Part shown: positions 4,613 to 17,365 of the stretch, piece by piece | Layout: each line of letters begins with the position of its first letter | Position numbering within the stretch: position 1 is the first letter of the stretch | Origin: Campylobacteraceae bacterium | GTDB taxonomy: Bacteria; Campylobacterota; Campylobacteria; Campylobacterales; Sulfurovaceae | Direction of reading: 5' to 3' | DNA: 64,000 nt | NCBI GenBank assembly: GCA_027024155.1 | Contig: JALVTE010000020.1 | Coordinates: 1 to 64,000 of the forward strand | Made by a program: the position numbers and the translations under genes | Notes under the pieces: model-generated | What the model was told of the DNA's origin: nothing | Databases searched by the model: none | Seen by the model: the letters and a program-made list of their open reading frames with translations, nothing else

Positions 4613-5117
4613 ATTGCAAAACATAAACATCCCTAACTCCACGGCTTTTTATTATACTCTCTATAAAAACCATTCCTACTTTTTGTAGAACTTTTTGGGA
4701 AGCTCTGTTTTGTGGGTGTGCTGTGGCGAATATTTTGGGGTTATTGAACTCTTGTTTGATTTTTTCAATTTGTGCTTTTGCTATCTCTGTAGCATAGCCT
4801 AAGCCCCAAGAGGATTTTTGCAATAGGTAGCCAAATTCGTAGCAGTTTGCTTTATTGTAGTAATTAAACTCTAATATTCCACCGTGCCCTATAATTTTGT
4901 TGCTTGCTTTTTCGATTATTGGAGCAAATCCTAAGATACCGTCATAAGTAAACATTTTATGCATAAACTCTTCTGTTTCAGCAAGGGTAAAAACTCTGCC
5001 AGTAGTATATTTTATAACTTCTTTATCACCATAAATCTGCTCATATAAAATTGTTATATCTTCATCTTTGCTAGTAACCATTAAAAGTCTATCTGTTTCT
5101 ACTATTACTCTTCTCAT
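4611..5117 (-). CDS. GNAT family N-acetyltransferase (RimJ/RimL type)
   Basis: This 168-residue protein starts MRRVIVETDRLLM, the usual opening of RimJ/RimL-like acetyltransferases. It continues with the acetyl-CoA-binding segment (EIAKAQIEKIKQ) and the C-terminal NRASQKVLQKVGM helix that defines the fold. Such enzymes acetylate N-termini, antibiotics or metabolites; the substrate cannot be predicted. It is divergent from the thioredoxin gene and ends in the arm of a long inverted repeat. Confidence 0.85.
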   Translation of the reverse strand: MRRVIVETDRLLMVTSKDEDITILYEQIYGDKEVIKYTTGRVFTLAETEEFMHKMFTYDGILGFAPIIEKASNKIIGHGGILEFNYYNKANCYEFGYLLQKSSWGLGYATEIAKAQIEKIKQEFNNPKIFATAHPQNRASQKVLQKVGMVFIESIIKSRGVRDVYVLQ

Positions 5118-5187: not shown

Positions 5188-5562
5188 ATGAAAAAATTAA
5201 CTACTCTTCTTGCACTGTCACTACTATTAGGATTTAGTGCAAATGCTCGTGCTATAAGTTTAAAGAGTTATCAAAAAGAGATTTCTAAACCAGGAGTTAC
5301 AGTTGTTGAGTATTGGGCACCATGGTGTGGTAGTTGTGCTGCTTTTAAGCCAGCTTATAATGCAGTAAAAAGAAAACTTGGGCATAAAGTTCGTTTTTTA
5401 GAATTAAATGTAGATAAAGTTGATGATGTAGAAACAACATTTGGATTAAAGTATGGTCTTCCAACACTTATACTATTTAAAAATGGTGCAGAGGTAAGTA
5501 AATTGCCTGGTGGCGGAGATGTTCAAGAGGTAATAAACTGGATTCAAGCTAATAGCAATTAA
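5188..5562 (+). CDS. Periplasmic thioredoxin-fold protein
   Basis: The start at 5188 (ribosome binding site GAAGGA) gives a 124-residue protein with a signal peptide of about 22 residues ending ANARA. A thioredoxin domain follows, with the active site WAPWCGSC (CxxC) and the cis-Pro segment GLPTLILFKNG. The CGSC dipeptide differs from the CGPC of cytoplasmic thioredoxin. A role in periplasmic disulfide reduction or exchange is inferred. An in-frame upstream Met would put a membrane helix ahead of this leader and lacks a convincing ribosome binding site. Confidence 0.85.
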   Translation: MKKLTTLLALSLLLGFSANARAISLKSYQKEISKPGVTVVEYWAPWCGSCAAFKPAYNAVKRKLGHKVRFLELNVDKVDDVETTFGLKYGLPTLILFKNGAEVSKLPGGGDVQEVINWIQANSN

Positions 5563-5635: not shown

Positions 5636-6397
5636 CTACTTTTTAAACTGCTCTACTTTACTTACATTTTTATCGTGAGTACCCTCTACTTCACAACAAT
5701 TCAGAAGAGATTTATCTGGGTTTTGTATAAAATCGTAACCTCTATAAATTGTGTAGAGTCCATATATTATTACTACTATTGAAGCTAGGCTCATCATTGC
5801 TTTTCGTATGTTGCTTTTTGTGAAAATTCCAGCAAAAAAGCCTAGAGTAAATAGAGAAGGAATTGTACTAATTCCAAATATAAACATAACAAAAGCACCC
5901 CAAATTGGGCTACCAGTACTTGCAGCTGTTACGGCGAAAAAGTAAACTAAGCCACAAGGCAGTAAGCCATTTAATAAACCTAAAATATAGAAACTACTTA
6001 AACCTTTAGATTGTATAGTTTCTCTAAAAATTTTTTGGTACCAAGATGTTCCAGAAAATGAGTGTTCTAATAGGGTTAAAAATTTAAACTTTCCGATTAA
6101 AGAAAGACCCGCTAGCACCATAAAAATACCTGCAGTAATTGTTAATGTTGCAATAGCAATATTGTTAAAACTTAATACTCCACCAATAGCACCAAATATT
6201 GCACCCATTGCAGTATAGGTTGTAACTCTACCCAAAGAGTAAGTTAAATGTGCAAGAGCTTGAGACATTTTAGAGCTTTTGCCATCTATTTTCGCACTAC
6301 TATAGGCTATAACTATACCTCCACACATACCAATACAGTGCCCAAGAGAACCTAAAAATGCGATTGTTACTATTGTAAAAATGTCTATGCTATCCAT
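5636..6397 (-). CDS. SafE/UreH_2-type membrane protein (sulfite exporter-like)
   Basis: This 253-residue integral membrane protein has about six helices and the hallmark HCIGMCGG near residue 21. It also has a second conserved GLLNGLLPCGLVY segment near residue 140. These mark the TauE/SafE-UreH_2 family, related to DsbD/CcdA-type thiol transporters. In Campylobacterota such genes often sit with copper or cytochrome oxidase maturation genes. It is the last gene of the NosL/ABC operon and abuts the previous gene with no gap, so a role in moving reducing power or a metal for that system is inferred. Confidence 0.8.
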   Translation of the reverse strand: MDSIDIFTIVTIAFLGSLGHCIGMCGGIVIAYSSAKIDGKSSKMSQALAHLTYSLGRVTTYTAMGAIFGAIGGVLSFNNIAIATLTITAGIFMVLAGLSLIGKFKFLTLLEHSFSGTSWYQKIFRETIQSKGLSSFYILGLLNGLLPCGLVYFFAVTAASTGSPIWGAFVMFIFGISTIPSLFTLGFFAGIFTKSNIRKAMMSLASIVVIIYGLYTIYRGYDFIQNPDKSLLNCCEVEGTHDKNVSKVEQFKK

Positions 6398-6901
6398 CTA
6401 TTCACCTAATATTTTTTTTCTAAATTTTGGGTTTGCAAGTGTCTCGTTTCTATACATTCTTAGAGTCATCTCTTTAAAGTCTATACTCTTCTTATCACCT
6501 TTTTCTAATGAGCCAAAACCGTAATGCATTGCACTATGGTATGTTGTTGTATATTTTGCACTTTTTGCATCTATCCATCTGTTTGTATCTATTGTGTGTA
6601 CCCAAAGTTTGGCACTATCTTTAAATGGTTTATCTTTTAACCATTTTACCATACAACCGGGGTCATCAAAAAACCAAGTTCTTCCATCTTTCAGTGCTAC
6701 TTCGGCTGAGTTTTTCTCTGTTTTTATAAGCATTGCACACTCTGTATCGTTAGTTTTATTCAACTTAATTGGCAATGGCTTTTGTGCCATATTCCCTTTG
6801 GCTATAACTATTGGAGCATCTTTTTTCATATACGAGATGGCAATTATAGCAACTACTACAAATAGTATTATTGTTAGCAATATAGATAAAATCTTTTTCA
6901 T
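6398..6901 (-). CDS. Membrane-anchored NosL-like protein
   Basis: This 167-residue protein has one N-terminal helix (residues 4-24) and a periplasmic domain. The domain resembles NosL: C55-A-M near the start, the FDDPGCMVKWL segment (Cys83-Met84) and a YHSAMHYGFG stretch with His and Met. NosL proteins bind Cu(I) and deliver copper to nitrous oxide reductase. The Cys/Met/His set here fits copper handling, but the partner is unknown. It overlaps the upstream membrane protein gene by 4 bp. Confidence 0.75.
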   Translation of the reverse strand: MKKILSILLTIILFVVVAIIAISYMKKDAPIVIAKGNMAQKPLPIKLNKTNDTECAMLIKTEKNSAEVALKDGRTWFFDDPGCMVKWLKDKPFKDSAKLWVHTIDTNRWIDAKSAKYTTTYHSAMHYGFGSLEKGDKKSIDFKEMTLRMYRNETLANPKFRKKILGE

Positions 6902-7863
6902 AAGAATACTCCATTTTTAAAGTAATAGTAGAGTACATAAGCACTACAGAGAGATACAAATAATACAAGAGAGGTAACTGTAATACGCTTTAATACTTTA
7001 CTTTCATATTTTAACAACCCAATTATAACCCAAATTAACCCAAAAAATAGAGCACTAAAAAGGGTACCCCAAACGAAATAACCAATATAGTAGTACTCTT
7101 TTTGCATCATACAAAATGGGCATTTATGCGTTGGGAGCTCATAAATATAAGTACCAAAAAAGTAGACAACTGCATAATATGAGATAACCGCAAATAGTAT
7201 CAGTGTAACAGCGGTTAAAAGCTTATTATCTAACAGTAGAGATAAAATTATCGATACAAAAAGCGTATAATATAGTATTAAAAGCATCTTTATATCTAAT
7301 CCAAAAGGTAGAGGATTAGCCCCTTCTAAGTTGCCAAACAGAGCCGAACAACAACTTACAGGCACAGATAAATCTATGTTAAATAGATATGCTATATCTA
7401 AATAAGTCTCTAAAAATATAAGCAAAAGCCCAGCTAGTAATACCCAACTTTTAAACTTTAACAAAGGGTAATTTTTAGCTTTTAAATCTAAATTGTTAAG
7501 TGTTAAAAATAGTAAAAATGTAAATATAGTTATCAACTTGACAAAGAGTAAACTCATTCCGTAACTATTGGCACTAATTACACCAGCACCGCACATTGCA
7601 CCAGGTATTATAATTGACAAAGAGTCAATCATATAGACAAAATATATTAAAAGTGTCAATTTAAGTGTAAATATAAAAGTCGCTATGGTAGAGAGTAGAT
7701 AACTCTGTTTTTCTAATTTAAGTTGTTTTGAAGAGAAGTTATTAAAATCCCAAAATCTTAGAATAGATATATCTTTAAAAAAGGCATAAAGAGCTATTAA
7801 AAAAAGCACTGCTTCGCTAAATAGATAAACAATAACATAATTATTTAAAAATAGCTCATTCAT
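6898..7863 (-). CDS. Polytopic membrane protein with CPFC and paired cysteines
   Basis: This 321-residue protein has about eight predicted helices. Three cysteine sites are notable: GAMCGAG (Cys91), VSCCSALFG (Cys171-172) and THKCPFCMMQKEYYYIG (Cys248, Cys251). The CPFC motif, followed by Met-Met at a membrane boundary, resembles a thiol-redox or metal-relay site. It lies between an ABC transporter and a NosL-like protein in one operon, so a part in copper transfer or disulfide chemistry is inferred. The family is not recognised by name. Confidence 0.75.
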   Translation of the reverse strand: MNELFLNNYVIVYLFSEAVLFLIALYAFFKDISILRFWDFNNFSSKQLKLEKQSYLLSTIATFIFTLKLTLLIYFVYMIDSLSIIIPGAMCGAGVISANSYGMSLLFVKLITIFTFLLFLTLNNLDLKAKNYPLLKFKSWVLLAGLLLIFLETYLDIAYLFNIDLSVPVSCCSALFGNLEGANPLPFGLDIKMLLILYYTLFVSIILSLLLDNKLLTAVTLILFAVISYYAVVYFFGTYIYELPTHKCPFCMMQKEYYYIGYFVWGTLFSALFFGLIWVIIGLLKYESKVLKRITVTSLVLFVSLCSAYVLYYYFKNGVFL

Positions 7864-7877
7864 TTTGCTCCCTTTAG

Positions 7878-7912
7878 ACTACCCACTAACAACTAACCCC
7901 TACCCACTAAAC
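7878..7912. repeat. Heptanucleotide array on the ABC ATPase stop codon
   Basis: Five 7-mers: ACTACCC, ACTAACA, ACTAACC, CCTACCC, ACTAAAC. The minus-strand ABC ATPase gene ends inside the array (stop 7893-7895), so its last residues GSLVGRG are encoded by the repeat. A nearly identical array lies on the permease stop codon at 8604-8638. Confidence 0.85.
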
Positions 7913-8567
7913 TACCTTGCGAAATCTCCACTACTCTATGCTCAAAATCTAACTCTTCAAATAGGCTATCGTGGGTTGCGACTATTATGGTTTTACCCAT
8001 ATTATGCAACTCTTTTAGAGTTTGAATAAAACTTAAAGAGTTAGCTCTGTCTAAGTTGGCTGTTGGTTCGTCGCATAGTATCAGGTTTGGGTTGGCTACC
8101 AATGCTCTAGCGATTGCCCCTCTTTGCTTCTCTCCACCCGATAATTCGATTGGAGTTTTATTAGCTTTATGGTCTATGTTGGCTAATTTTAGGGCATCTT
8201 GTGCTTTTAGCTTAGCCTCTTTTAGCCCAATTCCACTGGCAATTAGTGGCACCATTGCATTATCAGCCAAGCTAACACCATCTAGCAAATTAAAATTTTG
8301 AAACACTATACCAATCTTTTGGGCTCTAAAACTACTTAAATGCATATCTGGCAATTTAGATATTGGCTCGCCATCTACTAAAACCTTACCACTACTAGGT
8401 TTATCTAAGCCTGCAATAATAGATAAAAGAGTAGTCTTTCCACTACCACTAACCCCTTTTAGGATAACACACTCACCCTTTTGTATATTTAGATTAATGG
8501 CATTTAAAACATACTGCTTCTGCCCATCTATTTCGTAAAATTTATTTAAATTCTCTATCTTTACCAT
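7893..8567 (-). CDS. ABC transporter ATP-binding protein (MacB/LolD class)
   Basis: This 224-residue ATPase has Walker A at residues 38-46 (GVSGSGKTT), a Q-loop (FQNFNLL), the signature LSGGEKQ at 142-148 and Walker B LILCDEP at 162-168. The D-loop reads ANLD and the switch His is in VATHD. The spacing and sequence fit the MacB/LolD/FtsE class, which works with FtsX-fold permeases, and the next gene upstream in the operon encodes such a permease. The C-terminus is made by a repeat array. Copper, lipoprotein or peptide handling are all possible roles. Confidence 0.9.
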   Translation of the reverse strand: MVKIENLNKFYEIDGQKQYVLNAINLNIQKGECVILKGVSGSGKTTLLSIIAGLDKPSSGKVLVDGEPISKLPDMHLSSFRAQKIGIVFQNFNLLDGVSLADNAMVPLIASGIGLKEAKLKAQDALKLANIDHKANKTPIELSGGEKQRGAIARALVANPNLILCDEPTANLDRANSLSFIQTLKELHNMGKTIIVATHDSLFEELDFEHRVVEISQGSLVGRG

Positions 8568-8578
8568 ACTCTTCCTTT

Positions 8579-8638
8579 AGGGGTCACCTGACCCCTATAA
8601 AAAACTACCCACTAACAACTAACCCCTAATCACTAAAG
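8579..8638. repeat. Perfect palindrome plus heptanucleotide array
   Basis: AGGGGTCA (8579-8586) is followed 2 bp later by TGACCCCT (8589-8596), a perfect 8-bp inverted repeat. A heptad array follows at 8604-8638: ACTACCC, ACTAACA, ACTAACC, CCTAATC, ACTAAAG. The permease stop codon (8633-8635) lies in the last unit. Four of the five units are equal or nearly equal to those at 7878-7912. The palindrome shares its AGGGGTCA word with the inverted repeat at 10067-10128. Confidence 0.8.
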
Positions 8639-9811
8639 CGCCTCTTTAGGCTCTGTTACAGCTATTTTCCATACTGGTATTAGTACAGAGCCTAAAAAGG
8701 CTACAGCAAAAACTATAAATATTGTACTTAGCACGCTATAATCTACCACAGGTGTGAAAGTCGTAAATTGTTTTAAGTTGGCTCCGCCTAAAAATATATC
8801 TTTAAGTAGTGGAGCTCCCAAAATAAATACATAAATATATGCCAAGCTACTACCAAGCACAAATGCAAAAATTACTAAAAATATATTCTCTAAAAACTTC
8901 AGCTTTAAGACATCTTTTATACTCCAACCAACTGCTCTTAGTATTGCTATCTCTTTTCGCTCTAGCGAACTTGCTAAGCTATATCGCAAATATAAGAGTA
9001 AACTAAATGTAGCAATTACAATTAAATATAACACCAAAAATAGCCCGCCTTTATAGTTAAACAAATTCTCATAAGCTTTTTTCATATCTTTTTTAGTAAC
9101 AACTCTTGTACTAAAATTTAGGCTTTCTAGTTTTGCTTTTATATTTGCCCACTCGCTGTCGTTTGGAACATTTAGGGCAATATCTGTTAATTCATTCTCT
9201 TTTAAACCCAATACTTTTTGAGCCAACTCTAGTGGCATAACTATTATATCATTACTAAGCAGTGAACTTTTAACATTTAATGCTTTAAAAATATTTACCT
9301 TTTGCATCTGTCCACTTGGAGTTAAAAAATTGTAATTGCTTGTATAGTAATGGCTCTTTAAATAGTTTAGAACACCCTGCCCTACTAACATATTATCTTT
9401 AGATAAAAAGCTCTTTAAATCAACGCTATCCATAATTTTTGCTAACTTTTTATTGCTCTGTTCATCTAAAAAATCTACCCCAATAATTAAAGCACTATAT
9501 TTATCATCAAAAAAGTATCTTCCATAAACCCTTTTTGTAACTTTTTTAACTCCAAAAATATCGACTATTTTATCTACCTGCTCATCTTTTATAGGCGATA
9601 CCCTGCCACCTTTAATATTTTGCACAATAAAATCTGGCTGAGCTATTAAAGTTTGATTAAGTGTATGTTTAATTGAGCTAGAGATAAATAGCACACTACT
9701 TAACAAAAATATAAGCAGAGTAGAGATAAGCACAATACCTACAAATCGTCTCTTCTCTTTTAGTAAGTTTAGTGTTAAAAAGTAAAAAAACGAGTTATTT
9801 CTCATAAACAA
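8633..9811 (-). CDS. FtsX-type ABC transporter permease
   Basis: This 392-residue protein has a MacB/FtsX topology. There is one N-terminal helix at about 23-46, then a large periplasmic domain to about residue 250. Three more helices follow at about 256-276, 305-330 and 355-380, with the characteristic LERKEIAILRAVGWS coupling helix. It is paired with the downstream ATPase gene. Its start overlaps the preceding small gene by 17 bp, indicating translational coupling. FtsX-fold permeases typically act by mechanotransmission on periplasmic partners; here those may be the small protein and NosL upstream. Confidence 0.88.
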   Translation of the reverse strand: MFMRNNSFFYFLTLNLLKEKRRFVGIVLISTLLIFLLSSVLFISSSIKHTLNQTLIAQPDFIVQNIKGGRVSPIKDEQVDKIVDIFGVKKVTKRVYGRYFFDDKYSALIIGVDFLDEQSNKKLAKIMDSVDLKSFLSKDNMLVGQGVLNYLKSHYYTSNYNFLTPSGQMQKVNIFKALNVKSSLLSNDIIVMPLELAQKVLGLKENELTDIALNVPNDSEWANIKAKLESLNFSTRVVTKKDMKKAYENLFNYKGGLFLVLYLIVIATFSLLLYLRYSLASSLERKEIAILRAVGWSIKDVLKLKFLENIFLVIFAFVLGSSLAYIYVFILGAPLLKDIFLGGANLKQFTTFTPVVDYSVLSTIFIVFAVAFLGSVLIPVWKIAVTEPKEAL

Positions 9812-10049
9812 ATCCTATGGTATCGATAGTTGGCATATCAGGATATACGCTATTATCTAAACTTTTATCTAAATGTGGCAAACGATTCTCTAAAGCTGTA
9901 ACTCCAAATGCAGGTTCTATAATTTTGCTAAGCTTTGCAACTTTTTTTGTCTGTAAATCTATATCACTCTTATTGAAAAAATAGTGCCCACTCACTCCCA
10001 AAAGTAAAATAGTTAAAATCGCTATGTAAGTTAGAAACTCTTTAATCAA
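9795..10049 (-). CDS. Small membrane-anchored periplasmic protein
   Basis: This 84-residue protein has an N-terminal helix at residues 6-25 and a hydrophilic tail ending PTIDTIGFVYEK. It overlaps the permease start by 17 bp and lies between it and the first NosL gene, so it probably belongs to the same membrane assembly. No family was recognised. It has no cysteines. Confidence 0.65.
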   Translation of the reverse strand: MIKEFLTYIAILTILLLGVSGHYFFNKSDIDLQTKKVAKLSKIIEPAFGVTALENRLPHLDKSLDNSVYPDMPTIDTIGFVYEK

Positions 10050-10066
10050 TGTTTTGCCTTTTTATA

Positions 10067-10128
10067 GGGGTCAGGTGTTGAAAATACACTTTTGTCATAG
10101 AAAAAGTTTATTTTCAACACTTGACCCC
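10067..10128. repeat. Long inverted repeat inside the NosL operon
   Basis: The left arm (10067-10086) pairs with the right arm (10109-10128) over 20 bp with one mismatch, around a 22-bp spacer. The arms contain GGGGTCAGGTGTTGAA and its complement. It lies between nosL and the next operon gene, so the polycistronic mRNA would carry a strong stem. That could set the ratio of NosL to the downstream proteins. Confidence 0.8.
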
Positions 10129-10135
10129 AAATGTG

Positions 10136-10801
10136 CTACTTTTTATCTAAACTCATTACTATCTCTGGCGTAACTTTGCTAAACTCTATAAGCTTACCAC
10201 TATGGTCTGCTATAAAGTTTTTTGCCTCTTTTTCGGTTTTAAATGGTATTAACTCATTTCCCATAGGTCCATAAATTTTTGAACCTATTACATAAAATGC
10301 TTTTGTTGCATTTAATGACTCTAAAGTGTAAAAATCTCTAACCTCAACTTTACTGATTTTATCTCTATCATATTTAAAATCTTCATCAAAAAAGTAATAT
10401 TTTAGCATATCTTTTACACCATCGAAGTAGAAATTTTTTCCATCTACTACCATATGTGCAGCCCATTTTGGGTATTTATAAACAAACATTCCACAAACAG
10501 GGCATTTAGCACCATTAGGAACTTTAAATTTTGCCACCTCTTTTGTATCGCCTTTATTAAGCAAATAATAAGCAACTGCCTTTATTTTGTTTGTACCAAT
10601 ATTACCACAAGCTTTACTACTAGCTATTTTAGATATAAGTTCATCTACATTAGATTTATCTTGTGGTAATTTATCTTCTTGACAAAATATTTTAGCAATT
10701 TTTTGCCCTTTAAATGCAAGCTTTTTAACTACAGAGGGGCTCAACTCTTGTGAATATATAATAACGCTAAGAATAGAAATAGCAAGCAGAACTTTTTTCA
10801 T
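10136..10801 (-). CDS. nosL: Secreted NosL family protein
   Basis: This 221-residue protein has an N-terminal signal peptide (about 18 residues, cleavage near YSQ). The C-terminal half is a NosL domain with CPVCGMFVYKYPKWAAHM (Cys100, Cys103, Met105) and the typical FYFDGVKDMLKYYF stretch. An extra N-terminal region carries Cys40 and Cys65. NosL is a copper chaperone for nitrous oxide reductase, but no nosZ lies in the window. It is the first gene of a seven-gene minus-strand operon running down to 5636. A related short NosL-like protein is encoded further down the operon. Confidence 0.85.
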   Translation of the reverse strand: MKKVLLAISILSVIIYSQELSPSVVKKLAFKGQKIAKIFCQEDKLPQDKSNVDELISKIASSKACGNIGTNKIKAVAYYLLNKGDTKEVAKFKVPNGAKCPVCGMFVYKYPKWAAHMVVDGKNFYFDGVKDMLKYYFFDEDFKYDRDKISKVEVRDFYTLESLNATKAFYVIGSKIYGPMGNELIPFKTEKEAKNFIADHSGKLIEFSKVTPEIVMSLDKK

Positions 10802-11794: not shown

Positions 11795-13168
11795 TTACTC
11801 TCCTATAATTACTTTAAATTCTACTCTTCTGTTTCTTGCCTTATTCTCTGCTGAATCATTAGGCACCAATGGCTTAGTCTCTCCATAACCTATTGCCTTT
11901 AATCTCTCTGCTGATATTCCACTTTTAACAAGTTCTGCTTTTACAGTATCTACCCTATCTTGTGAAAGTTTTAAGTTATACTCGGCTTTACCATCGCTAT
12001 CTGTATAACCTTCAATTTTAATTTTTACAGCTGGATACTTATTTAAAATAGCTGCAACTCTATCAACAATCTCTTTACCCTTAGCTGTTAAAGTAGCTTT
12101 ATTAACTTCAAATTCTATTTTATGAAGATGTAAAATATCTTTAATTTGAGACTCGATATCCTCTTTTACCTTCTCATCTGCTTTTACAGGCTCAACTTTT
12201 GGCTCCTCTTTTTTAACTGCTGGCTTATCATTAGGGTCTAATGGATTTGTTCCTGCATTTTTCTCATCTATATTACTTACGCCATCTCCATCGCTATCAT
12301 TGTTTACATCACTATCATTTGCATCTAGCTCATCAACCACACCATCGTTATCGGCATCTAATTTTGCAGACTCTATTAAATCACTTTTACCATCTCCATC
12401 CGTATCTTTTCCTTTTTCTATTTTATCTAGCTTGCCATCTTTATCAGTATCTGGCTCTATTTTAGAGTTAGGGTCAAGTGGATTTGTACCTGCTTTCACT
12501 TCTTCTATATTACTTATGCCATCATTATCTGTATCATTATTTGGATTATCATCTTTGGCATCTAGTTCGTCTACTACACCATCACTATCAGCATCTAGTT
12601 TTGCAGACTCTACTACATCACTTTTACCATCTCCATCAGAATCTTTACCCTTCTCTACTTTATCAATTTTTCCATCTTTATCTGTATCTAACTCTACAGG
12701 TTTAGAGTTGGCATCTAATGGGTTTGTTCCTGCTTTTTTCTCTTCTATATTACTATAACCATCTTTATCACTATCATTATTTGGATTATCATCTTTGGCA
12801 TCTAGTTCGTCTACTACACCATCACTATCAGCATCTTTTAATGTTGATTCTAATACATTTGATACACCATCTTTATCTGTATCTTTATGATACTCTTCTC
12901 CATCTAGCTTTCCATCACCATCTGTATCTTTATTAAAAGGGTCGCTATTTATTGCCTCTTCTTTGTCATTTGACAGCCCGTCGCCATCAATGTCATTATC
13001 ATCATCATTTGCTATGCCATCTCCATCTAAATCTGCTATTTTAATCGATTGTTTAGATTTATCTGTATTGTGCTTCTCTCCAATACCTTTTATTGAAGTA
13101 TGTACAAAGCAACAAGATATGATTAATGCTATTAAAGCAAGTATTGCAATCTTTAATTTTTTACCCAT
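11795..13168 (-). CDS. OmpA-family lipoprotein with calcium-binding type 3 repeats
   Basis: This 457-residue protein has a leader with a possible lipobox (LIISC, Cys19). A long region of DxDxDG repeats follows at about 45-320 (thrombospondin type 3-like, expected to bind Ca2+). The C-terminal OmpA peptidoglycan-binding domain is at about 345-455, with EGYTDSDGKAEYNLKLSQ.R and the NRRVEFKV end. The repeat region contains three related modules of about 70-80 residues, nearly identical at DNA level. It probably links the outer membrane to peptidoglycan across a calcium-stiffened stalk. Confidence 0.9.
   Translation of the reverse strand: MGKKLKIAILALIALIISCCFVHTSIKGIGEKHNTDKSKQSIKIADLDGDGIANDDDNDIDGDGLSNDKEEAINSDPFNKDTDGDGKLDGEEYHKDTDKDGVSNVLESTLKDADSDGVVDELDAKDDNPNNDSDKDGYSNIEEKKAGTNPLDANSKPVELDTDKDGKIDKVEKGKDSDGDGKSDVVESAKLDADSDGVVDELDAKDDNPNNDTDNDGISNIEEVKAGTNPLDPNSKIEPDTDKDGKLDKIEKGKDTDGDGKSDLIESAKLDADNDGVVDELDANDSDVNNDSDGDGVSNIDEKNAGTNPLDPNDKPAVKKEEPKVEPVKADEKVKEDIESQIKDILHLHKIEFEVNKATLTAKGKEIVDRVAAILNKYPAVKIKIEGYTDSDGKAEYNLKLSQDRVDTVKAELVKSGISAERLKAIGYGETKPLVPNDSAENKARNRRVEFKVIIGE
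12540..12840. repeat. Intragenic tandem modules in the OmpA-family gene
   Basis: A stretch of more than 50 bp covering GGATTATCATCTTTGGCATC recurs exactly at about 12542 and 12782, 240 bp apart, within longer similar modules. A third, more diverged module starts near 12310. Such repeats allow in-frame gain or loss of about 80-residue calcium-binding modules by recombination. Confidence 0.75.
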
Positions 13169-13287: not shown

Positions 13288-13932
13288 TTATTTTTTAGCC
13301 TCTATTGCCTTATGTATAACAGTTGTTAAACCTAGTAATTTCCAAGCTTGCAAACCACCTCTATACCATAATATTTTATCTTTTGGATAACCTTTATCCG
13401 CTAGGTTTTTAGCTAAACTTACAGATGCACTACACCATAAACCAGAGCAGAATATTGCTAAATCTTTAGCATTAGTAAAATCATAGCTACCATCAGGTTT
13501 AATTTTTGCCCCAAGTGCTTTAAAGAGGCTATCAGTAACTTTTTTAGATTTAACTTCTGCTATTGTAAATGGAATATTAATTGCTCCTGGTATTGTCTCT
13601 AAAACATAAAACTCTTTCAGCCTTGCATCTACAAGAATGCCCTTCTTTTTATATACCTTATTTTTAATAAAATCTATTAACTCCAATTCGCCAATAGTTT
13701 TTATTCCATCTTCTATTTTTATTTTAGGTATACAGTGGGGAGGACATAGTCGAGAAGTTTTTGCAAAGTCATCAGTTAATCTATTAGCAGTATCTTGTAT
13801 TCTTTTTATATTTACAGTTACACCACTATCATTAATTTTAACTTCTGGTGTATCTTTGGTGATTTTTACAAGCAAATCTTCAGCACTAAGTAGAGTACCC
13901 AGTGCTGCTATTGTTAAAAGTGTTTTTTTCAT
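13288..13932 (-). CDS. Secreted rhodanese-like protein, catalytic Cys present
   Basis: This 214-residue protein has a signal peptide (about residues 1-17, ending LSA). A conserved SRLCPPHC block lies near residue 61-67, and a rhodanese domain follows with VDARLKEFYVLETIPGAINIPF. The active-site loop FCSGLWCS has Cys162 and Cys167. Periplasmic sulfur transfer (thiosulfate or polysulfide) is inferred. It is a paralogue of the gene at 16715-17365, with the same order of blocks. It is the last gene of a four-gene minus-strand run (rhodanese, PilJ-N, LysM, rhodanese). Confidence 0.88.
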   Translation of the reverse strand: MKKTLLTIAALGTLLSAEDLLVKITKDTPEVKINDSGVTVNIKRIQDTANRLTDDFAKTSRLCPPHCIPKIKIEDGIKTIGELELIDFIKNKVYKKKGILVDARLKEFYVLETIPGAINIPFTIAEVKSKKVTDSLFKALGAKIKPDGSYDFTNAKDLAIFCSGLWCSASVSLAKNLADKGYPKDKILWYRGGLQAWKLLGLTTVIHKAIEAKK

Positions 13933-15019: not shown

Positions 15020-16702
15020 TTAATACTCTGTTGAAGTTTCTATTAAATGAACAGCTTTATTCATTTCGTTCAATAAAATAGGATTTACCTTTAATAATAA
15101 TACCAACTCTTTTTTACTTAAATCATTTTTATTATAAAATGGCATAATTTTTTGCCATAAATTAAAAACTTTAATAAGTTGCTTCTTTATAATAGGGTTA
15201 GTACACTTTGGTAACATATATAATTTGCTACCGTTAATTAAAACTTTAAGTGTATTGTTGAAAAGTTCTACACTCTCTTTAAGTTTAGGTTTATACTCTT
15301 TTTGCCCCATTTGATAAATAGCTAAAAACTCTTTTGTCATCTTTTGTGTAAGCATTCTCTGACGACCAGCCATATCTATTAATGCAATATTTGCATTCTC
15401 TATATAGTTACTGTATTTTTGCTCAATTTTATCAAATATCTCAACTAAATGGTTACTCTCTTTTAATAATTTACCATTATGCTTTAAAATATAATTTAAT
15501 GCCTCTTTATCTTTACCTCCACTATTTTGTACTTTTAAAGCAGCATCTTCAAATGGTTTCCATAACTTTAATAGTTTATCTATTTGTGCCAATGCCTCTT
15601 TATTATTTGTTGCTTCTAAATCTAACGCTTTATCGCCATTTTTAAATCCTAAAAGAGTCTTTTTATATAAATTTACAAACTGCTCTAACCTATTACAACT
15701 ATCTGGTATTAAATGCAAAGTACACTCTATAGCCAACTTACTAATTCTCTGTGTTAGCATTCTCTGCTTTCCTGCTAAGTTTACTAAGTGCTTAGCTCTG
15801 TTCTTTTTAGTTGAAAAACCACTTATAATAGAGTTTAACTTCATATACTGTTTTTGTCTATTTAAAGATTTTGTATATAAACCAACAGCTTTATTCATAT
15901 CTACTTTTGTTTCATCTAAATAATTAATCAACTCTTTAGTTAATTTTTTATCATTTTTATTTTTAATAGCTTTTGGAATTAAATCTTTTGCCCTGCTCCA
16001 ACTACTTTTCGCAACATCTAACTGCTTTCTGATTTTTGGTAATTTTGTTCCTACTAAATCTAACTCTTTATCTCCATTATATAGACCATTTAGAGTTTTA
16101 TCAAATAGCTTTAAAGAGTTATTTAAATTAGCTAATTTCTCTTGAGCATCCATATTGGCTTGATACATTAATATATCTTTAGCAATCATTTGTGTTAGCA
16201 TTCTCTGCTTACCTGCTAGGTTAATATCATTTGCCATTTTCAATTTATTCCTACCACTATTACCTAACTTAGCATACATTGATACAGCTCTATTCATATT
16301 TTCAAGTAGCGCTAAATTATTCTCTTTAACATAAGCATATGCACTCTCATCTTTTTCTAAAGAGTAAATCTTTTTAATATTTTTATAAAACTCTTGCCAC
16401 TGTTTATCGATACCTTTTAAGTGCTCTTGTATCTTTTTATCTTTAGTTGCTACTAAACCTAAAGTTTTATCTCCAGCTTGCAACCCTTTTAAGATTCTAT
16501 CAAATAGTGCAGAAGTAGCTTTTAACTCTTTAGCATTCTTTTTTTCATCAATACCAAGCTTTATTAGCAAAGCCTCTTTACTCATCTTCTGAGTTAGCAT
16601 TCTCTCTTTACCTGCTAAGTTAATAGAGTTTGCTAACTCTTTATCACTCATTGCATATAAAGAGCAAAATGCTAAAGAGATTGCTAGTAATACTTTCAAC
16701 AT
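15020..16702 (-). CDS. Secreted protein with four PilJ-N (type IV pili MCP N-terminal) modules
   Basis: This 560-residue protein has a signal peptide (cleavage near residue 17) and no later membrane helix. Four modules each begin with an AG(K/R)xRMLTQ motif: residues 29-45, 162-178, 309-325 and 444-460. Each is followed by GDK and NxAV-type helices. This is the PilJ/NarX-like sensor domain (PF13675), usually found once ahead of a chemotaxis or kinase output domain. Here it is free-standing and quadruplicated, so it probably binds a ligand in the periplasm. It lies between two rhodaneses, which suggests a sulfur or nitrogen oxyanion ligand (inference). Confidence 0.88.
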   Translation of the reverse strand: MLKVLLAISLAFCSLYAMSDKELANSINLAGKERMLTQKMSKEALLIKLGIDEKKNAKELKATSALFDRILKGLQAGDKTLGLVATKDKKIQEHLKGIDKQWQEFYKNIKKIYSLEKDESAYAYVKENNLALLENMNRAVSMYAKLGNSGRNKLKMANDINLAGKQRMLTQMIAKDILMYQANMDAQEKLANLNNSLKLFDKTLNGLYNGDKELDLVGTKLPKIRKQLDVAKSSWSRAKDLIPKAIKNKNDKKLTKELINYLDETKVDMNKAVGLYTKSLNRQKQYMKLNSIISGFSTKKNRAKHLVNLAGKQRMLTQRISKLAIECTLHLIPDSCNRLEQFVNLYKKTLLGFKNGDKALDLEATNNKEALAQIDKLLKLWKPFEDAALKVQNSGGKDKEALNYILKHNGKLLKESNHLVEIFDKIEQKYSNYIENANIALIDMAGRQRMLTQKMTKEFLAIYQMGQKEYKPKLKESVELFNNTLKVLINGSKLYMLPKCTNPIIKKQLIKVFNLWQKIMPFYNKNDLSKKELVLLLKVNPILLNEMNKAVHLIETSTEY

Positions 16703-16714
16703 CTACTTCTCCTT

Positions 16715-17365
16715 TTATTTCTGTTCTAGCACTTTAAATCCTAAAATTTGCCAATACTGCATACCGCCGCGATAATATTTTATTTTATCTTTTGGATAAC
16801 CAATTTTAATTAAGTGTTGCATTGCTCTAGTTCCTTGCTGATCCCATGGTCCATTATCAAATACAACTAACTTTTGAGCATTGTCAAAATTCCATTTACC
16901 ATTAATTTTTTTAGCACCCAAAATTGGTAAAACTTGTTGCAAATATTGATTTGATGTATCTGGATTTAAGATAGAAAATGGAATATTTATAGCACCCGGT
17001 ATAGTACCTTCTTTGTACCATTTAGGTAATCTTGCATCTACAAGTACACCAGTATTATTACTAACTTCTTGTTTTAAAAAATTCAATAATTCCAATTCAC
17101 CATAAGTTTCAACACCTTTAATAGGCTGAAATGGCTGAACACAAAATGGTGGACATGGTCTTGATGTTTTTGAATAACTGTTTGTTAATTTATGTTGTGT
17201 ATCTTGTATTCTATCTAGCCTAACAGGTTCACCCATAACATCTACATCTACATAAGGTAAATTTTTTGTTATTTTAACTTTATATTCTCCATCAGTTGCC
17301 CCATATAAAGAGCTAATTGTAAATAGTGCTACAGTTCCTAATATAAAAAAAGAATTTATCTTCAT
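16715..17365 (-). CDS. Secreted rhodanese-like protein without catalytic Cys
   Basis: This 216-residue paralogue of the protein at 13288-13932 has a signal peptide (about residues 1-22). The same SRPCPPFC block (Cys71, Cys75) is present and the rhodanese domain includes VDARLPKWYKEGTIPGAINIPF. The active-site loop reads VVFDNGPWDQQ where the paralogue has IFCSGLWCS, so the catalytic Cys is Asp170. It is therefore probably a structural or binding partner rather than a sulfurtransferase. It is the first gene of the cluster; the 409-bp AT-rich gap upstream should hold its promoter. Confidence 0.87.
   Translation of the reverse strand: MKINSFFILGTVALFTISSLYGATDGEYKVKITKNLPYVDVDVMGEPVRLDRIQDTQHKLTNSYSKTSRPCPPFCVQPFQPIKGVETYGELELLNFLKQEVSNNTGVLVDARLPKWYKEGTIPGAINIPFSILNPDTSNQYLQQVLPILGAKKINGKWNFDNAQKLVVFDNGPWDQQGTRAMQHLIKIGYPKDKIKYYRGGMQYWQILGFKVLEQK

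Follow-up and report, generated by a model that had tools for sequence, protein, structure and literature searches.

A conserved operon of NosL-type proteins, an FtsX-type ABC system and a CPFC membrane protein in Campylobacterales, a candidate copper(I) relay linked to nosZ and mccA

A seven-gene operon is located at positions 5636 to 10801 of a 64,000-nucleotide stretch of DNA (from here: the window; contig JALVTE010000020.1, assembly GCA_027024155.1) from a Campylobacteraceae bacterium of the Sulfurovaceae. All genes are on the minus strand and encode, in the order given in a preliminary description of this DNA, a secreted NosL protein (NosL1), a small membrane protein, an FtsX-type ABC permease, an ABC ATPase, a membrane protein with eight transmembrane helices (8-TM) and a CPFC motif (the CPFC protein), a membrane-anchored NosL-like protein (NosL2) and a DsbD_2 protein. 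We report that this gene set (from here: the module) recurs throughout the Campylobacterales, where copies are linked to nosZ and to mccA, the gene of the haem-copper sulfite reductase. Judged from gene content and order, conserved residues, folds and linkage, the operon probably constitutes a periplasmic Cu(I) relay for the maturation of respiratory copper enzymes, in which permease and ATPase would act as a mechanical transducer and the location of each copy would indicate its client. Current understanding of how respiratory copper sites obtain tightly chaperoned Cu(I), and of the energy behind this step, is incomplete and comes mostly from the NosDFY system. Newly recognised here are the link to mcc clusters and the position of the module as a supplement to NosDFY.

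Results

The sample consisted of 239 Campylobacterales genomes of at least 90% completeness, in which 145 CPFC copies were found. CPFC is present in 122 of these genomes and in 39 of 60 relatives; no plasmid-borne CPFC was found. At 107 non-redundant CPFC loci the ATPase gene was detected in 97 cases, the FtsX gene in 92, NosL2 in 75, NosL1 in 65, DsbD_2 in 44 and a recognisable small protein in 34, all of which are lower bounds because contig ends cut some loci. The genes nearly always share strand and order across many genera, and the conservation of gene order is far above chance. The linkage of NosL and ABC genes is hence kept in other genomes, which bears out the earlier view of a distinct MacB/LolD-class system joined to NosL and thiol membrane proteins. 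Complete Sulfurospirillum-like genomes carry separate nos-linked, mcc-linked and stand-alone paralogues, and the CPFC copy of the window belongs to a clade whose modules mostly stand alone and include DsbD_2.

Within 25 kb of nosZ we found 31 of the 145 CPFC copies, compared to about 2% expected per copy. The module is present in 78 of the 98 genomes with nosZ versus 44 of the 141 genomes without it (odds ratio 8.6, Fisher's exact test 7e-14, both not corrected for phylogeny). The 79 labelled copies on the CPFC tree require at least 12 changes of the nos label. In Sulfurospirillum-like genomes the module is inserted between nosF-nosL and nosY (loci L170, L172, L177, L179); in further nos clusters it lies between nosF and nosY, in some together with DsbD_2 (L198, L199), immediately upstream of nosZ (L200, L201) or adjacent to the nos cluster (L197). 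In the nos cluster of S. cavolei, five inserted genes, an ABC permease and an ATPase among them, were reported without an explanation (PMC4794192); this insertion occupies the same position as the nos-linked copies found here and is most likely this module. The part of that paper dealing with the insertion mentions it in passing and proposes neither a recurrent module, nor mcc-linked or stand-alone copies, nor a function.

The operon is nevertheless not an ordinary nos accessory set of the NosDFYL kind, as there is no nosZ in the genome of the window, no strict linkage and neither a NosY-type permease nor a NosF-type ATPase. Models for TAT- and Sec-type NosZ detected no nosZ in the window or in its 97%-complete genome, from which a contig may be missing; the absence of nosZ noted previously was thereby confirmed. 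A strict dependence of the module on nosZ was rejected, since 44 of the 122 module genomes lack this gene. The proposed separation from known nos loci accordingly stood with regard to the ABC class, but not with regard to location, as the module repeatedly sits inside nos clusters in which nosF and nosY are still present.

The second link is to mccA. A distance of 8–12 kb separates 24 of the 145 CPFC copies from mccA, where about 2% per copy would be expected, and 24 of the 25 genomes with both mccA and the module have a copy at this distance; in the one exception mccA is located at a contig edge. The mcc label arises once on the CPFC tree, the mcc-linked copies forming a single clade separate from the copy of the window. 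In the mcc-type arrangement the module follows MccA-FKBP-FeS-NrfD-CcsBA-Sel1 (L169, L173, L175, L178, L182, L185, L187, L188), with MccA at or just past the edge of several of these eight stretches. One type of mcc cluster thus consistently includes the module. The MccA of L185 contains seven CXXCH motifs and one CX15CH motif, which we take to be the signature of the haem-copper sulfite reductase; no MccA of this octahaem type was found in the genome of the window. Two non-haem cysteines, presumed to be the copper ligands reported in the 2015 structure, are retained in the module-linked MccAs. The NosL of the module may be likened to MccL, a NosL-like protein known from Wolinella. MccA has been listed as a cuproenzyme (PMC7558416).

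The idea that MccA from genomes without the module had lost the presumed copper-ligand cysteines was rejected, as both are found in each of the 25 MccAs that were aligned. A second MccA subtype, about 45–50% identical, occurs without the module (L189-L192, L225, L226) and mostly has an extra cysteine yielding CPSC at the presumed copper-ligand cysteine. It adjoins a fusion of rhodanese, multihaem and cytochrome b561 parts and, in two clusters, also a thioredoxin-like protein. The latter is not SCO, so that an exchange of copper chaperones in mcc clusters without the module is no more than suggested.

Stand-alone modules were found in Sulfurospirillum-like genomes at L171, L174, L176, L180, L184 and L186. 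Their neighbours, named by eye, are an NAD-epimerase-like gene, LysE-like exporters, a DUF1007/permease pair and a two-component system. Among the 34 module genomes without nosZ or mccA, 32 have ccoO, one of the two negatives being inferred from absence in a listing.

The CPFC protein (6898..7863, minus strand; 321 amino acids) contains the sites GAMC91, C171C172 and H246xC248PxC251. Across 34 aligned members C91, C171, C172, C248, C251, H246, K109 and M90 are kept, and the cysteines are essentially invariant in 107 sequences. The CPFC, CC and C sites pointed out in the preliminary description are therefore real, with H246 as an additional conserved residue. The structural model is confident (pLDDT 90.7) and shows eight long helices; from Lys/Arg counts the three cysteine loops are predicted to be periplasmic. 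No Pfam or NCBIfam family, no PDB sequence relative and no PDB fold match below an E value of 0.001 were found, and an open-literature search yielded no paper characterising the protein. As far as these tools reach, CPFC represents a so far undescribed family. A relationship to FetA was rejected (hhalign probability 0.2%), as was assignment to the DsbB/VKOR-type thiol oxidases, for which neither Pfam nor PDB fold matches were obtained. In the Sulfurospirillum-like genome G237 the CPFC frame extends to 488 amino acids in two near-identical copies (L170:10168-11634 and L171:8792-10258), in which CPFC is apparently merged with NosL2 or frame-shifted near its end.

The permease gene (8633..9811, minus strand, starting at either TTG 9811 or ATG 9805) encodes a PF02687 protein with four transmembrane helices and a periplasmic core. 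Its AlphaFold model is of moderate confidence (pLDDT 79.8), and Foldseek searches with it matched LolE (E 3e-15), MacB (2e-12) and HrtB (2e-10), as well as the LolC fold; LolC is also the nearest solved sequence. On the basis of this model, the permease belongs to the type VII (MacB/LolCDE-like) superfamily, whose folds are known for mechanotransmission and not for transport. The ATPase (7893..8567, minus strand) is of the LolD/FtsE class and has a Walker A motif, a signature motif and an H-loop. The pair thus shares permease fold and ATPase class with LolCDE, MacB and HrtBA, but has a single stand-alone permease that forms its own clade and scores far below the LolC/E and MacB cut-offs. Assignment as a LolC/LolE equivalog was rejected (TIGR02212, 41 bits versus a cut-off of 362; one permease, not a pair), and so was membership in MacAB, as ATPase and permease are separate genes without MacA (MacB_PCD, 18 versus 27 bits). 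Separate LolC-like and FtsX genes exist in the genome of the window. In quick trees permease and ATPase form groups separate from the Fet, Dev and NosF proteins, the ATPase being far from NosF and the permease also apart from Lol. One ATPase in the tree, fetched by homology and not an operon member, groups with FtsE.

NosL1 (10136..10801, minus strand) consists of a signal peptide, a helical stretch with two cysteines (C40 and C65, both invariant) and a NosL domain (PF05573, 107.8 bits versus a cut-off of 24) with the sequence CPVCGM, a CXXCXM motif of the clade-II type. Its conserved residues are C40, C65, C100, C103, M105 and the distal M180. NosL2 (6398..6901, minus strand) carries a CXM motif (C55, M57), FFDxxGC83 and a distal Met125 and reaches 18 bits with PF05573, below the cut-off of 24. 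Of two NosL copper proteins proposed previously, one is hence a true family member and the other NosL-like only; a weak NosL match was also seen in 17 of 20 NosL2 family members, nearly all of which keep CXM and the distal Met. NosL itself has been shown to act as a Cu(I) chaperone for CuZ, its affinity being attomolar (PMC6530538). One additional NosL gene exists at another locus of the genome. NosL1 resembles one half of a tandem protein, as relatives join NosL, the Cys2 helical stretch and a second NosL in one chain (L197:15693-16784). In the genome of the window a NosL plus Cys2 half is encoded at a second locus (L048:8953-9657, contig C18), adjoining 2-oxoacid:ferredoxin oxidoreductase genes.

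The last gene of the operon (5636..6397, minus strand), described as SafE-like, indeed belongs to PF13386 (DsbD_2, 172 bits), the family commonly annotated SafE. It contains GHCxGMC and PCG motifs and occurs in a subset of modules. The small membrane protein (9795..10049, minus strand; 84 amino acids) has a single span, a periplasmic tail and no family match; its position is kept, its sequence poorly. The gaps between the seven genes measure 86, −17, 65, 29, −4 and 0 bp. A gene for a periplasmic thioredoxin (5188..5562, plus strand; listed reading frame start at 5068, likely start at 5188) borders the operon. Its linkage is not conserved in relatives and we therefore regard it only as a possible partner.

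Discussion

By analogy, the best reading of the module is that of a mechanical Cu(I) relay resembling NosDFY but built on a different ABC fold. NosL1 and the membrane-anchored NosL2 would hold Cu(I), and the periplasmic thiol/His site of CPFC would hand the copper on or keep its path reduced. Permease and ATPase would carry no copper across the membrane, but would act as a MacB/LolCDE-type mechanical transducer through which cytoplasmic ATP forces very tightly held Cu(I) to be transferred or released to the client, while the DsbD_2 protein may supply the electrons that keep the thiols reduced. Copies in nos clusters would serve NosZ, those in mcc clusters MccA, and stand-alone copies, including that of the window, another copper enzyme, most likely the cbb3 oxidase. 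The NosDFY complex is reportedly a mechanical transducer without transport (Nature 2022). Release of tightly bound copper plausibly needs energy, and with this precedent the FtsX-ATPase pair may be read as doing likewise. In both systems an ABC complex works together with a Cu(I) chaperone of the NosL type next to a copper enzyme (for NosL: PMC6530538). They differ in that the permease of the module is of the LolC/MacB type and not of the NosY type, NosD is lacking, and an 8-TM cysteine protein and DsbD_2 are added; moreover, the module coexists with nosF and nosY and is also found with mccA or alone.

Several observations weigh against a copper relay of this kind. Module-bearing nos clusters retain nosF and nosY, so the role of the module is not simply that of NosDFY, and 20 of the 98 nosZ genomes lack it; the four of these that were inspected (L193-L196) have complete nosZ-H-F-Y-L clusters. 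The module is therefore an addition to NosDFY, not a substitute. It is also absent from 8 of the 33 mccA genomes, and although their MccAs are divergent (47–50% identity), the six that were aligned keep the same two non-haem cysteines. Taken together, these cases indicate that the module is obligatory for neither enzyme. The CXM cysteine is missing from NosL2 in two mcc-type members, the lack of phylogenetic correction limits the association with nosZ, and the CxxC loops together with the DsbD_2 protein fit pure thiol chemistry as well. With regard to the window, ccoO is present in the genome, which fits the cbb3 oxidase, our best guess for the client. The 32 of 34 genomes mentioned above are compatible with this assignment but weak in its favour, because ccoO occurs in 215 of the 239 genomes overall and cbb3 in many genomes without the module. 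The earlier suggestion of cbb3 or a remote NosZ as target was thus retained for cbb3, with weak statistics, and lost its second half in the absence of nosZ. Overall, the previous interpretation is partly supported: its core idea holds, whereas a role in mcc clusters was not foreseen.

Thiol/haem c maturation stays the main rival because of the CcsBA linkage and the DsbD_2 partner, although we consider it unlikely. On this reading the module is a thiol-redox machine that handles cytochrome c or disulfides; CPFC and DsbD_2 would move electrons to periplasmic thiols, e.g. apocytochrome CXXCH, and NosL would be secondary. Both clients need haem c maturation, as the NosZ of Campylobacterota has a c-haem and MccA eight haems; CXXCH is present in the NosZ matches, the haem lyase CcsBA is linked in mcc clusters, a DsbD_2/CcdA-like partner lies in the operon, a thioredoxin borders it, and the CPxC beside Q in CPFC recalls, at the level of sequence, the CxxCxxQ of DsbB. 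However, CPFC matches neither DsbB, VKOR nor CcdA in Pfam and no fold in the PDB, two NosL-type proteins are among its constant partners, and recruitment was seen at nosZ and mccA clusters only, other cytochrome clusters not having been searched systematically.

Copper uptake, export or detoxification, in which the ABC system would move copper or a copper ligand across or out of the membrane and the nos and mcc linkage would reflect copper demand, appears improbable. The many stand-alone copies and the resemblance of the permease to the haem exporter HrtB would agree with it, but permeases of the LolCDE/MacB type work by mechanotransmission, acting from the membrane or the periplasm; genes for P-type ATPases, CopZ, CusCBA or metal sensors were not seen to recur next to the module; and its insertion between nosF and nosY indicates a role in enzyme assembly. 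A very remote candidate is a copper version of the FetABCDEF (p19) system known from Campylobacter jejuni, in which an 8-TM metal protein, an FtsX-type ABC system and thiol proteins would give redox support to a separate metal permease. The parts list is of the same kind, with an 8-TM Cys-motif protein, ABC permease and ATPase, thiol oxidoreductases and a metal role (PMC10783030). Yet Fet has the DUF2318/YHS protein FetA, two permeases and FetMP; FtrD/DUF2318 (PF10080) is absent from the genome of the window and present in just 4 of 60 relatives, the hhalign comparison with FetA speaks against it, no sequence relation to the module was detected, and the single permease and its ATPase form their own clade.

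Returning to the copper relay, we tentatively suggest, with somewhat less than even confidence, that the module may be an ATP-driven machine for copper insertion, general and transferable, with CPFC as a new class of membrane copper/thiol protein, and that it is recruited separately to NosZ, MccA and probably cbb3, beside and not instead of NosDFY. If true, the mechanical-transducer idea could be tested independently on a second ABC architecture that serves both the N2O-destroying enzyme and the haem-copper sulfite reductase; this would also add a membrane protein family so far without annotation, carried by about half of the sampled Campylobacterales, and identify a factor possibly limiting N2O reduction by these bacteria at low copper.

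Further observations in the window

The regions 13288-13932 and 16715-17365 encode related secreted proteins that flank LysM and repeat proteins, with a rhodanese domain in the first; their family turns up again near the module in a few close relatives. The region 15020-16702 encodes a 560-amino-acid protein that has a signal peptide and four NLAGKQRMLTQ repeats like those of PilJ/NIT-type sensor domains and lacks an obvious output domain. At 11795-13168 an OmpA-like protein is encoded, in which long DxDGD calcium-type repeats (thrombospondin-type-3-like) precede the OmpA domain.

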